From Dehalogenimonas etheniformans (GTDB lineage: Bacteria > Chloroflexota > Dehalococcoidia > Dehalococcoidales > Dehalococcoidaceae): a stretch of 64,000 nt of DNA. Numbering within the stretch: the first letter of the stretch is position 1; the number at the start of each line of letters is the position of its first letter. Positions 51,266 to 55,262 of this stretch are shown here, one piece after another. Under the pieces are notes generated by a model. The model did not search any database. It was given only the letters and a program-made list of their open reading frames with translations, and had not been told where the DNA came from. The position numbers and the translations under genes are program-made. The stretch is taken from NCBI RefSeq assembly GCF_014672715.2, contig NZ_CP058566.2, forward strand, positions 1,488,001 through 1,552,000, read 5' to 3'.

Positions 51266-51367
51266 TTACACTGATCATCGGACACAATAATTGAAACGAA
51301 GTGATCGGCTTAAGCCGGCCAAATATGAAGTCCTGGTCCGATAAATGACTTTACACGTGTGTACTCG

Positions 51368-51373
51368 TATAAT
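51368..51373 (+). promoter_or_regulatory. -10 element giving a leaderless zinc-ribbon mRNA
   Basis: TATAAT ends 7 nt before the ATG at 51381. This position rules out the in-frame ATG at 51345 as start. Confidence 0.6.
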
Positions 51374-51380
51374 TCTGAAC

Positions 51381-51527
51381 ATGGAAACTGCCAAACGTCA
51401 TTTGTTTAGATGCAAAGTTTGCGGCTACATTTGGGTGCAATATCTTAAAGAAGGCGACCCCAGCCCAGGCAATTGTCCCAAATGCAGTTCACCGGATTGG
51501 AATAAAGCTAGAATTCCCCGGCCATGA
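51381..51527 (+). CDS. Small rubredoxin/zinc-ribbon-like protein (48 aa)
   Basis: The 48-residue protein has two CxxC knuckles, FRCKVCGYIW and GNCPKCSSPDW, 22 residues apart, with aromatic residues as in rubredoxin-type or zinc-ribbon folds. It could carry one iron (electron transfer) or zinc. It stands alone, and the start is set by the -10 element just upstream. Confidence 0.75.
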   Translation: METAKRHLFRCKVCGYIWVQYLKEGDPSPGNCPKCSSPDWNKARIPRP

Positions 51528-52129: not shown

Positions 52130-52158
52130 TTGACTGAGTTCAAAAGGAGCAGTACAAT
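52130..52158 (+). promoter_or_regulatory. Promoter of the double-cubane reductase operon
   Basis: TTGACT (52130-52135) and TACAAT (52153-52158) have an ideal 17-bp spacer. Transcription from about 52165 gives a leader of about 290 nt. Confidence 0.7.
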
Positions 52159-52199
52159 TATGTAAGTTAATCATCTTGCTCAAGAGGGAGGTGATAAGC

Positions 52200-52232
52200 A
52201 TGTCCAGGACCCCCTTCCACCGCCGCACTTGA
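52200..52232 (+). CDS. Leader mini-ORF (10 codons)
   Basis: ATG at 52200 follows GGGAGGTGAT, which is nearly the full anti-16S complement, with 4 nt spacing. It encodes MSRTPFHRRT and ends at TGA 52230-52232. The strength of the ribosome site and its ability to be paired away suggest that ribosome occupancy here influences the downstream structures. No single amino acid is repeated enough to point to a classic attenuator. Expression is unproven. Confidence 0.4.
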   Translation: MSRTPFHRRT

Positions 52233-52335
52233 CGGAACATTAATAGCGCGGGTACCGCGCCCGGGACTGCTTATGCCTCCCATACGTCAGGTTTTTTCGG
52301 CTAGTTAGTCGAAATCTCCATTATTCAAACGTGAC

Positions 52336-52364
52336 GGTGGAGGCAACTCCGCCTTCTTTCTTTT
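52336..52364 (+). terminator. Terminator-like hairpin inside the leader
   Basis: GGTGGAG (52336-52342), a GCAA loop and CTCCGCC (52347-52353) are followed by TTCTTTCTTTT. It lies 90 bp before the reductase start, so it should act as an attenuator rather than end a gene. Confidence 0.6.
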
Positions 52365-52454
52365 GACGTCCTCGCGACGATCATCGAATTTCGGCCGCAG
52401 TCCCCTCGAAAACAGCCAACGATCAAGCACCAATAATTTCGAGAGGATTTTGAC

Positions 52455-53729
52455 ATGGTTTTAACCGAAAACGAGCAAATGTGGGCCGACCTCGGCATCG
52501 ACCTCAAGTCCCACGGCCAGTTGATGAACGCCCTGGGACCGATCTACAGGGACATCTATCTCAGCCAGCAGAACCGCCCCAAGGGCATGGGCTTTTACGA
52601 TTTCGTCGTCGGCGATATCCACGGCATCCGGGTCAAGGAACTGCGGGAGCACGCCAAGGCCGGCGGCAAGGTGGTGGCCACCTACTGCGTCTTCGTGCCG
52701 GAGGAGTTCTGCTGGGCCACGGGCGCCATCCCCATCAGCCTGTGCGCCGGCACCGCCTTCTCCATCCCCGCCGCCGAAGAAGTCCTGCCCAGGAACACCT
52801 GCGCACTCATCAAGTCATCGTTCGGCTTCAAGCTGGGTAAGCTCTGCCCTTACGTTCAGGTGTCCCACCTCATCGTCGGCGAGACCACCTGCGACGGCAA
52901 GAAGAAGATGTTCGAATTACTCGCCGAGCACCAGCCGGTCTACGTAATGGAGGTACCCAACAAGCGCGGACCCGCCGGTCGTAACCTGTGGCAGCAGGAA
53001 GTCCGCGACTTCAAGGCTAAAATCGAGGAATTGACCGGCAACCAGATCACCGCCGAAAATCTCGGCGAAGCCATCAAGAAGGTCAATGCCCGCAGACGTG
53101 AGTTCAAGCGGCTTTCGGCTTTACGAGCCGCCGACCCGGCGCCCATCTCCGGCAAGGACGCGCTACTCGCTACCCAGGTCTCGATGTACGACGATGTCGA
53201 GCGCGAGACCCAGATCATGAAGGCCTTGAACGATGAACTCGAGGAGCGGGTAAAGAAGGCCGAGGGAGTATTCCCCAAGGGCGCCAAGCGTATCCTCATC
53301 TCCGGCTCGCCCATGGCCATCCCCAACTGGAAGCTGCACCACCTCATCGAGAGTGCCGGTGCGGTGGTCGTCGGCGAGGAGTCCTGCACCGGCAGCCGCT
53401 TCTTCAACGAACTGGTACCCGAGGGCATTACCCATCTTGACGAGATGGTTACGGCGCTGGCCGATCGCTACCTCAGAACCAACTGCGCCTGCTTCACCCC
53501 CAACTGCGAGCGCCTGGATGACATCATCGGCATGGCGAAGGCGCTCAAGGCCGACGGTGTCATCCACTACAACCTGCAGTTCTGCCACACGTATGCCAAT
53601 GAAGCCATCCAGGTGGACAAGGCGCTGGAAAAAGCCGGCATCCCGCTGCTTCGCATCGAGACCGACTACTCCGACGAGGACTCCGGCCAACTAAAGACCC
53701 GCATCGATGCCTTCCTGGAGACTTTGTAA
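52455..53729 (+). CDS. Double-cubane-cluster anaerobic reductase / 2-hydroxyacyl-CoA dehydratase subunit family protein
   Basis: The 424-residue protein belongs to the HgdB/FldB-like group. Early cysteines are C78, C86, C97, C116, C131 and C146, with later ones in GEESCTGSRFF and NCACFTPNCERL. In the single-subunit members (YjiM/DCCP type) cysteines bind an unusual [Fe8S9] double-cubane cluster that reduces small substrates at very low potential, driven by an ATP-hydrolysing activator. The activator gene follows at 53815. The true substrate is unknown. The ATG has GAGAGGA upstream. Oxygen-sensitive chemistry implies strict anaerobiosis. Confidence 0.9.
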   Translation: MVLTENEQMWADLGIDLKSHGQLMNALGPIYRDIYLSQQNRPKGMGFYDFVVGDIHGIRVKELREHAKAGGKVVATYCVFVPEEFCWATGAIPISLCAGTAFSIPAAEEVLPRNTCALIKSSFGFKLGKLCPYVQVSHLIVGETTCDGKKKMFELLAEHQPVYVMEVPNKRGPAGRNLWQQEVRDFKAKIEELTGNQITAENLGEAIKKVNARRREFKRLSALRAADPAPISGKDALLATQVSMYDDVERETQIMKALNDELEERVKKAEGVFPKGAKRILISGSPMAIPNWKLHHLIESAGAVVVGEESCTGSRFFNELVPEGITHLDEMVTALADRYLRTNCACFTPNCERLDDIIGMAKALKADGVIHYNLQFCHTYANEAIQVDKALEKAGIPLLRIETDYSDEDSGQLKTRIDAFLETL

Positions 53730-53785: not shown

Positions 53786-53814
53786 CCGCCCAAAAGCAAA
53801 TTGAGGTTTTGCAG

Positions 53815-54552
53815 ATGATCACCGCCGGCCTCGACGTCGGTTCCCGCACCATCAAGCTGGTGCTCTTCGATGGCAATATCATCCATTCCGTTGTCGCCGA
53901 TAGCGGCCTGAAGCCCGTTGACCGCTGCCGCCGGTTGCTCGAAGGCCGCTCATTCGACAAATTGATGGTGACCGGCTACGGCCGAGATTTGGTGGCCCTG
54001 GAGCTATCCGGGGCCACCATTTCCGAGATCTCGGCACAAGCAGCCGCCGCCCGCTACCTCTACCCCGACGCCGCCAGTGTCATCGACATTGGCGGCCAGG
54101 ATTCCAAGGTCATCCGCCTTTCGGCGACGGGCGTCCGGAAGTTCGAAATGAACGACCGCTGTGCTGCCGGCACAGGCAAGTTTTTGGAGATCATGGCTCG
54201 CGCCCTGGAGCTTTGCATCGACGACTTCGCCAAAACAGCCCTCGATGCCGAACGCTCGGTGACCTTGAATTCCCTCTGTACCGTCTTCGCCGAGTCCGAG
54301 GTCATCTCCCTCATCAATAAGGGCGAGGATGCTCATGCCATCGCCCTCGGTCTGCACCAGGCTGTCGCTTCCCGTGTTGGCGCCATGGCTAAACGAGTCG
54401 GTATGGCGGACAGATTGGTCTTTTCCGGCGGCGGCGCTAAAAACCCCTGCCTAGTTAAGTTGCTGGAGGAAAAGTTAAGCCTTAAAATCACCGTGCCCGA
54501 AGAGCCTCAGATAACCGCTGCCCTCGGTGCCGCCATTATCGCCTCTCGTTAA
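53815..54552 (+). CDS. Acyl-CoA dehydratase/double-cubane reductase activase (BadF/HgdC ASKHA ATPase)
   Basis: The 245-residue ATPase has the ASKHA motifs AGLDVGSRTIKLVL, DIGGQDSKVIRL and VFSGGGAKNPCLV. The Fe-S cysteines lie in MNDRCAAGTGKFLE and SLCTVFAESE; each subunit of the dimer gives two ligands to one [4Fe-4S] cluster. It transfers single electrons, with ATP hydrolysis, to the partner reductase encoded upstream. ATG at 53815 with GAGG 8 nt before it is preferred to an in-frame TTG. Cognate donor ferredoxin is not in the window. Confidence 0.93.
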   Translation: MITAGLDVGSRTIKLVLFDGNIIHSVVADSGLKPVDRCRRLLEGRSFDKLMVTGYGRDLVALELSGATISEISAQAAAARYLYPDAASVIDIGGQDSKVIRLSATGVRKFEMNDRCAAGTGKFLEIMARALELCIDDFAKTALDAERSVTLNSLCTVFAESEVISLINKGEDAHAIALGLHQAVASRVGAMAKRVGMADRLVFSGGGAKNPCLVKLLEEKLSLKITVPEEPQITAALGAAIIASR

Positions 54553-54683: not shown

Positions 54684-55262
54684 ATGCCTGAGATCATAGA
54701 CGCCCGCAGCAAGCCCTGCCCCCAACCCGTCCTCCTGGCCGCCGAGGCCCTGAAAAAATCAGACGATGTCACCGTCATCGTCGATAATCCCGGCTCGCAG
54801 CAAAACGTCGCCAAATTCGGCAAGACCCAGGGCTGCAGCGTGACGGTTGAGGAAAAAGCTGATGGTATCTACATCCACCTGACCAAGATGGCTGTGGCTT
54901 CGAAAACCGAGGCACCCAAGGCCAGCGGTATCGTCGTTTTCATCGGCTCCGACGTCATCGGCCGCGGCGAGAACATCGAACTCGGCAGCTTGTTGATGCA
55001 GAGTTTCCTGAATACCCTCCAGTCCTTACCCAACCGCCCGGAAACCATCTTATTCATGAACAACGGCGTGAAATTGGTAGCCGAGGGCTCTCACGTCATC
55101 GGCGAACTCAAGCAGCTTGCCGATTCCGGAATCGAACTCCTGGCCTGCGGCACCTGCCTGTCGCGCCTCGGCCTGTCTAACAAGATCGCCGTCGGCCATA
55201 TCTCCAACATGTTCACCATCGCCGACACGATGATGCGGGCATCAAAGGTTATTAGTCTTTAG
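54684..55262 (+). CDS. yedF: YedF: TusA-like/DsrE-like sulfur-selenium transfer protein
   Basis: The 192-residue fusion has a TusA-like N-terminal domain (about 1-72) with the persulfide cysteine in SKPCPQPVL. Its DsrE-like C-terminal domain (about 82-192) has VVFIGSDVIGRG, MNNGVKLVAEGS and LLACGTCLSRLG. This matches the group annotated as sulfurtransferase-like selenium metabolism protein YedF. It often accompanies YjiM/YjiL-type reductase and activase genes, as here. Whether it handles selenium or sulfur in this organism is unknown. AGGAG lies 7 nt before the ATG. Confidence 0.9.
   Translation: MPEIIDARSKPCPQPVLLAAEALKKSDDVTVIVDNPGSQQNVAKFGKTQGCSVTVEEKADGIYIHLTKMAVASKTEAPKASGIVVFIGSDVIGRGENIELGSLLMQSFLNTLQSLPNRPETILFMNNGVKLVAEGSHVIGELKQLADSGIELLACGTCLSRLGLSNKIAVGHISNMFTIADTMMRASKVISL

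Follow-up and report, generated by a model that had tools for sequence, protein, structure and literature searches.

The leader that precedes the double-cubane reductase/activase/YedF operon of Dehalogenimonas etheniformans is probably a ribosome-mediated transcription attenuator which, judging from comparative sequence evidence, would read selenium status through the decoding of a UGA codon as selenocysteine (Sec). The window analyzed, a stretch of 64,000 nucleotides, is part of a genome of 2,068,322 bases, and all features given below lie on its forward strand. Between a promoter located by consensus scan (52130-52158, with TTGACT at 52130-52135, a spacer of 17 nt and TACAAT at 52153-52158) and the ATG of the reductase gene (52455), the leader contains a Shine-Dalgarno (SD) sequence, a mini-ORF, a GC hairpin, an anti-SD segment that we have called the hub, two terminator-like structures and a hairpin covering the reductase SD. 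The promoter could be aligned as TTGAC[CT] / TA[TC]AAT in seven of the eight Dehalogenimonas genomes, the -35 box of G005 being degenerate. The leader RNA folded with a z-score of -3.2, and only 1 of 200 dinucleotide shuffles folded as well or better.

An earlier note on this DNA had proposed a switch-like attenuator leader with a mini-ORF before this operon, and our comparison with other genomes supported that view. The promoter, the strong SD with its 10-codon ORF, the pairing of this SD with 52269-52281 and the second, GCAA-looped terminator that it had described were all recovered in the sequence. Its statement that no known class applies agreed with the Rfam search, in which the leader had zero matches at gathering scores and, at E ≤ 10, just two lncRNA matches at chance level. 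None of the metabolite riboswitch classes in Rfam was matched. A T-box, suggested by GGTACCGCG, was rejected: the T-box model of Rfam was matched neither at the gathering score nor at E ≤ 10, and the GGTACCGCG stretch forms a single hairpin in whose loop one base varies. Conservation and compensated pairs ruled out a chance origin, and the single copy per Dehalogenimonas genome ruled out a repeated or mobile element. The leader is thus very likely a real, conserved, structured and attenuator-like element. What the earlier note overlooked is the UGA as a candidate Sec codon, the SECIS-like hairpin, and the occurrence of the same RNA before other selenium genes.

The operon opens with the double-cubane-cluster reductase gene (yjiM-like, 52455-53729; NF040772, 493.7 bits, cut-off 350), followed by the activase gene (yjiL-like, 53809-54552; TIGR00241, 217.7 bits, cut-off 125.4), and ends with the gene of YedF, a sulfurtransferase-like selenium metabolism protein (54684-55262; TIGR03527, 186.8 bits, cut-off 110). 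A small ORF (51345-51527) upstream of the leader and of a tRNA gene gave a sub-threshold match to an FmdB zinc ribbon. YedF, activases and 2-hydroxyglutaryl-CoA dehydratase (HGD-D) proteins have been associated with SelD, SelA or SelB (PMC5322559). The genes found 3' of leader copies across the class include the double-cubane reductase and the putative selenium transporter YedE (TIGR04112, 479 bits, cut-off 200), as well as an OsmC protein and an ArsP_1 permease, whose nearest models, OsmC_like_Se and the NCBIfam model SaoE, respectively, scored below cut-off. YedE was not found in Dehalogenimonas. This gene set makes a relation of the leader to selenium very likely. The ArsP_1-type permeases downstream of five leaders (L104, L106, L107, L109 and L113) have ~450 aa and a PFCSCC motif, and are candidate selenium-linked transporters. 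In G238 (L090), a membrane protein that looks YedE-like by eye is encoded directly upstream of the double-cubane reductase, so that the two genes are linked there without a leader.

The machinery for Sec insertion accompanies the leader within the genus, tRNA-Sec (68-72 bits) and SelB being present in 8/8 Dehalogenimonas genomes; for D. alkenigignens it has been published (PMC4918011). Two Dehalococcoides genomes that were tested had neither tRNA-Sec nor SelB, and three that were searched had neither the leader nor the reductase gene. In the class, SelB was found in 20 of the 22 leader-bearing genomes versus 253 of 393 overall; SelB being this common, the co-occurrence alone is weak. SelB was not found in G035, which has tRNA-Sec, nor in G419 (72% complete), and most SelB-bearing genomes of the class are without the leader.

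The leader occurred once in each of the eight Dehalogenimonas genomes, and a DNA search of other relatives found it in none. In other families and orders, seven leaders with an SD, a short ORF, UGA-NNN-UGA, a hairpin, an anti-SD hub and a terminator precede orthologues of the reductase gene. A covariance model built from these seven only, with no Dehalogenimonas leader included, recovered 8/8 Dehalogenimonas leaders at the exact position (search space of 25.7 kb, E-values between 2e-5 and 0.15). Hence, on this sequence and structure match, the Dehalogenimonas and class-wide forms are very probably homologous. When genomes were scanned with this model, more copies came up, both in other orders of the class and elsewhere in the phylum. 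Such a structure model was needed for the class-wide copies because their peptides differ: a search of 85k genomes for the exact mini-ORF pattern gave six scattered matches, about the number estimated beforehand by hand. Two weak, decayed-looking second matches (L115 and L116) lie in genomes with a YedE leader, before genes of HdrC/TfrB-like Fe-S proteins.

The SD of the mini-ORF, GGAGGTGA (52187-52194), which is also the 5' strand of helix P1, is identical in 8/8 members of the genus and near-identical in the class-wide copies. It is followed by the mini-ORF MSRTPFHRRT-UGA (52200-52232), whose UGA (52230-52232) is the candidate Sec codon. The consensus in Dehalogenimonas is M-S/N-R/G-x-P/S-FHRRT-UGA; FHRRT is invariant in the eight genomes and the codon changes within it are all synonymous. 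A strong SD and a peptide conserved through synonymous changes suggest that the ORF is translated, as in a ribosome-mediated attenuator. Outside the genus the peptides end in a similar R-x-F-T and the leaders mostly carry UGA-NNN-UGA, so that two Sec insertions would be needed in most of them. In L017-L020, L087, L089 and L096, two in-frame UGAs stand six nt apart before the hairpin, an arrangement explicable only if both can be decoded. UGA was the first in-frame stop in 26/26 intact leaders versus 15/49 long ORFs of the window, a conservation that is partly by construction, as some of the copies were retrieved with a model that itself included the UGA. The 27th leader, a weak second match in G388, is degenerate and was left out of this count.

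Downstream of the UGA lies a SECIS-like hairpin, GCGCG-GGUAC-CGCGC (52246-52260), with an MFE of -10.5 kcal/mol and the GGU of its loop at nt 22-24, the U of UGA being nt 1. The published model of bacterial SECIS elements has a UGA followed by a hairpin with an upper stem of 4-16 bp and a loop of 3-9 nt, a G at loop position 1 or 2 (mostly as G[G/U]), a UGA-loop spacing of 16-37 nt and an MFE ≤ -7.5 kcal/mol (PMC13188914). The leader hairpin agrees with this model in its position after a UGA, stem and loop size, loop G, spacing and MFE. In its strict form, with an RGU loop, the hairpin was found in 21/27 leaders versus 7 of the 2211 UGA triplets of the window. The leader loops read AGUUU, GGUUC, GGUAC, GGUGC or GGUCU and in most copies start 22-25 nt from the last UGA; the distance is 36 nt in the YedE leaders, which form one clade. 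The strict form is not kept in G004, whose loop (CUUGC) has no RGU. The FdhA genes of the same genomes have an in-frame UGA and genuine SECIS loops (AGUUU or GGUCU) at nt 22-26, with AGU/GGU at nt 22-24. The leader element thus has in common with bacterial SECIS elements (those of E. coli fdhF and Dehalogenimonas FdhA) a hairpin past the UGA, a G at one of the two leading positions of the loop and, in most copies, a loop 22-25 nt from the UGA. It differs in sitting in a mini-ORF instead of a selenoprotein gene and in the often doubled UGA, and the bulged U of the fdhF element (U17) is not evident in the leader hairpins. From these features, the UGA is likely read as Sec by means of the hairpin.

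Further leaders depart from this pattern. Those of family f107 (L105, L108, L111 and L112) precede YedE and an OsmC-like gene and contain an additional hairpin. Their SECIS-like loop lies at a distance of 36 nt from the first UGA, and their hub-complementary arm is not followed by a T-run. In G492 the leader (L113) has kept UGA-NNN-UGA and its hairpin is without the RGU loop; a search for SelB in this genome (91% complete) gave no match, and the leader may be one that is decaying after loss of Sec.

The frame past the UGA is open, and its first TAA or TAG falls at codon 23-33, shortly after the hub, in 23/26 leaders versus 9/52 in the other two frames (Fisher p of 1e-9, or 3e-7 without Dehalogenimonas, both optimistic because the leaders are related). 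In the window this frame is closed by a TAG at 52302-52304, just beyond the hub. The distance from UGA to hub in Dehalogenimonas is 33 or 36 nt in 8/8 genomes, always a multiple of three, with the hairpin shifting by 0-3 nt between species. Across the class the hub takes two phases relative to the UGA, and the amino-acid sequence encoded past the UGA is therefore not conserved. On these grounds, we ruled out that the UGA is followed by a conserved selenopeptide.

These observations bear on an alternative sensor, in which hairpin-bound SelB-GTP-Sec-tRNA would itself control folding or translation and the UGA would be an ordinary stop. Such a sensor would fit the RGU hairpin and the selenium gene set, and the SECIS-like element in the leader of E. 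coli selAB is a precedent for it (Thanbichler and Boeck 2002, as cited in PMC8124441). It leaves unexplained, however, why all leaders have the UGA, why the spacing is 22-25 nt, why the read-through frame is open and ends at a set place, and why, in Dehalogenimonas, the UGA-hub distance is a multiple of three. We regard it as unlikely. Less credible still is an ordinary leader-peptide attenuator in which FHRRT (elsewhere R-x-F-T) or the run of Arg codons stalls the ribosome, perhaps together with a small ligand, the UGA and hairpin being incidental. The synonymous changes in the Dehalogenimonas peptide and the similar R-x-F-T ends across the class would be expected of it, but genus and class peptides differ, the FT-UGA end is explicable by complementarity to the SD, and neither the RGU loops at SECIS spacing nor the selenium-gene neighbors would be accounted for.

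The hub, GGGACTGCTTATGCCTCC (52263-52280), can pair with three partners: the SD of the mini-ORF (P1), the 5' arm of the terminator, through GCCTCC, or 52397-52404, through GGGACTGC. In P1, two pairs are changed on both strands, in each case in G002. The long-range partner GCAGTCCC (52397-52404), the complement of GGGACTGC, had 98% of cells paired and one doubly changed pair (C-G to U-A in G002). Shuffling controls for the pairings, with eight related sequences, were moderate only (39/500 and 58/500). Closer to the operon, CCCCTCGAAA (52402-52411) pairs with the reductase SD region TTTCGAGAGG (52437-52446); the inner pairs of this stem (52402-52446) are kept in 8/8 genomes, with a G-C to A-U change in G001, and the outer pairs are lost in several species.

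The intrinsic terminator, GGTGGAGGCAACTCCGCC with a T-rich tail (52336-52364; stem 52336-52353, GCAA loop), keeps its position and stem in 8/8 Dehalogenimonas genomes. Its GGAGGC (52339-52344) is complementary to GCCTCC of the hub (52275-52280), and in 14 class-wide leaders the pairing of each hub with the terminator arm of the same leader was better than with swapped partners (0/20000 permutations). Hence the hub would serve as antiterminator strand as well as anti-SD, and the leader pairings comprise mutually exclusive terminator and antiterminator structures. The earlier note had also described a possible first terminator (52228-52297), in which 52228-52234 pairs with 52285-52291 before a T6 run (52292-52297). 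Its 5' arm includes the UGA. This stem is present in the window, but this part of the proposal is weak because the pairing is kept in only 5/8 Dehalogenimonas species, with no covariation; as a key switch it was ruled out for lack of conservation. The covariation check that the earlier note had suggested for homologous leaders thus yielded conservation and some covariation, this stem being the exception.

The earlier note had named both attenuators and riboswitches. A metabolite riboswitch (sensing, e.g., a selenium compound) in which the mini-ORF is mere decoration would fit the mutually exclusive pairings before genes of one metabolism, but is highly improbable given that sequence conservation is in the SD, ORF, hairpin loop and hub, with no multi-helix junction, large conserved pocket or Rfam match. 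The UGA, the SECIS-like hairpin and the presence of the same RNA before selenium genes together make mediation by ribosome and SelB likelier.

In the Sec-decoding attenuator that we favor, the ribosome would translate the mini-ORF as far as the UGA, where the downstream hairpin would act as a SECIS element recruiting SelB with Sec-tRNA. If Sec-tRNA is scarce, the ribosome would pause or terminate at the UGA and hold the SD off the hub; the hub could then pair with the 5' arm of the terminator, and transcription would run into the reductase/activase/YedF operon. If Sec-tRNA is plentiful, the UGA would be read through with insertion of Sec, the hairpin would be melted and the hub covered by the ribosome up to the TAG, allowing the terminator to form. 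With no ribosome, SD-hub pairing would block initiation at the mini-ORF, and the terminator would again be free. Folded at the stage at which the 3' arm of the terminator has yet to emerge, the transcript had a mean of 6.8 expected hub:terminator pairs when free; a ribosome placed at the UGA raised this to 9.2 and one covering the hub lowered it to 1.0, with 2/22 leaders showing the opposite direction. This modeling favors a pause or stop at the UGA as the on state and Sec read-through as the off state. In full-length equilibrium folding the terminator was stable in nearly every state and the switch was not clearly shown, the folding of the truncated transcript showing it in part; a switch of this kind would thus need kinetic control.

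The E. coli selAB element and the Dehalogenimonas leader have in common a SECIS-like hairpin in the mRNA leader of a selenium-metabolism gene, to which the latter adds a UGA mini-ORF, an anti-SD hub and an intrinsic terminator. The selAB element reportedly represses translation upon binding of SelB and Sec-tRNA and has no Sec mini-ORF. With the trp and his attenuators, the leader shares a short translated leader ORF and mutually exclusive hairpins before an operon, the supply of a charged tRNA being, here presumably, read through the position of the ribosome; it differs in that sensing would take place at a stop codon recoded for Sec, SelB and SECIS being the sensor. E. coli tnaC likewise has a leader peptide ending in UGA and stop-codon events that decide termination. 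There, tryptophan induces inhibition of RF2, and Rho takes part. The Dehalogenimonas leader differs from tnaC in its RGU hairpin past the UGA and its intrinsic terminator. We know of no bacterial regulator that gauges the supply of Sec-tRNA by decoding. A literature search, which reached few subscription papers, found no report of a Sec-codon attenuator, the selAB element being the nearest precedent.

On balance, we lean toward the wider view that a set of selenium genes across the class Dehalococcoidia is under Sec attenuators of this kind. The sensor would be the competition between SelB/Sec-tRNA and RF2 at the UGA of the mini-ORF, often doubled for a steeper response, with the expanded genetic code serving as a selenium gauge. 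If true, stop-codon recoding would have been put to regulatory use, in a selenium sensor of an unreported kind. It would also offer a way into unassigned genes, namely those of the double-cubane reductase, YedF and the SaoE-like permease, as a set responding to selenium in organohalide-respiring bacteria of environmental importance.
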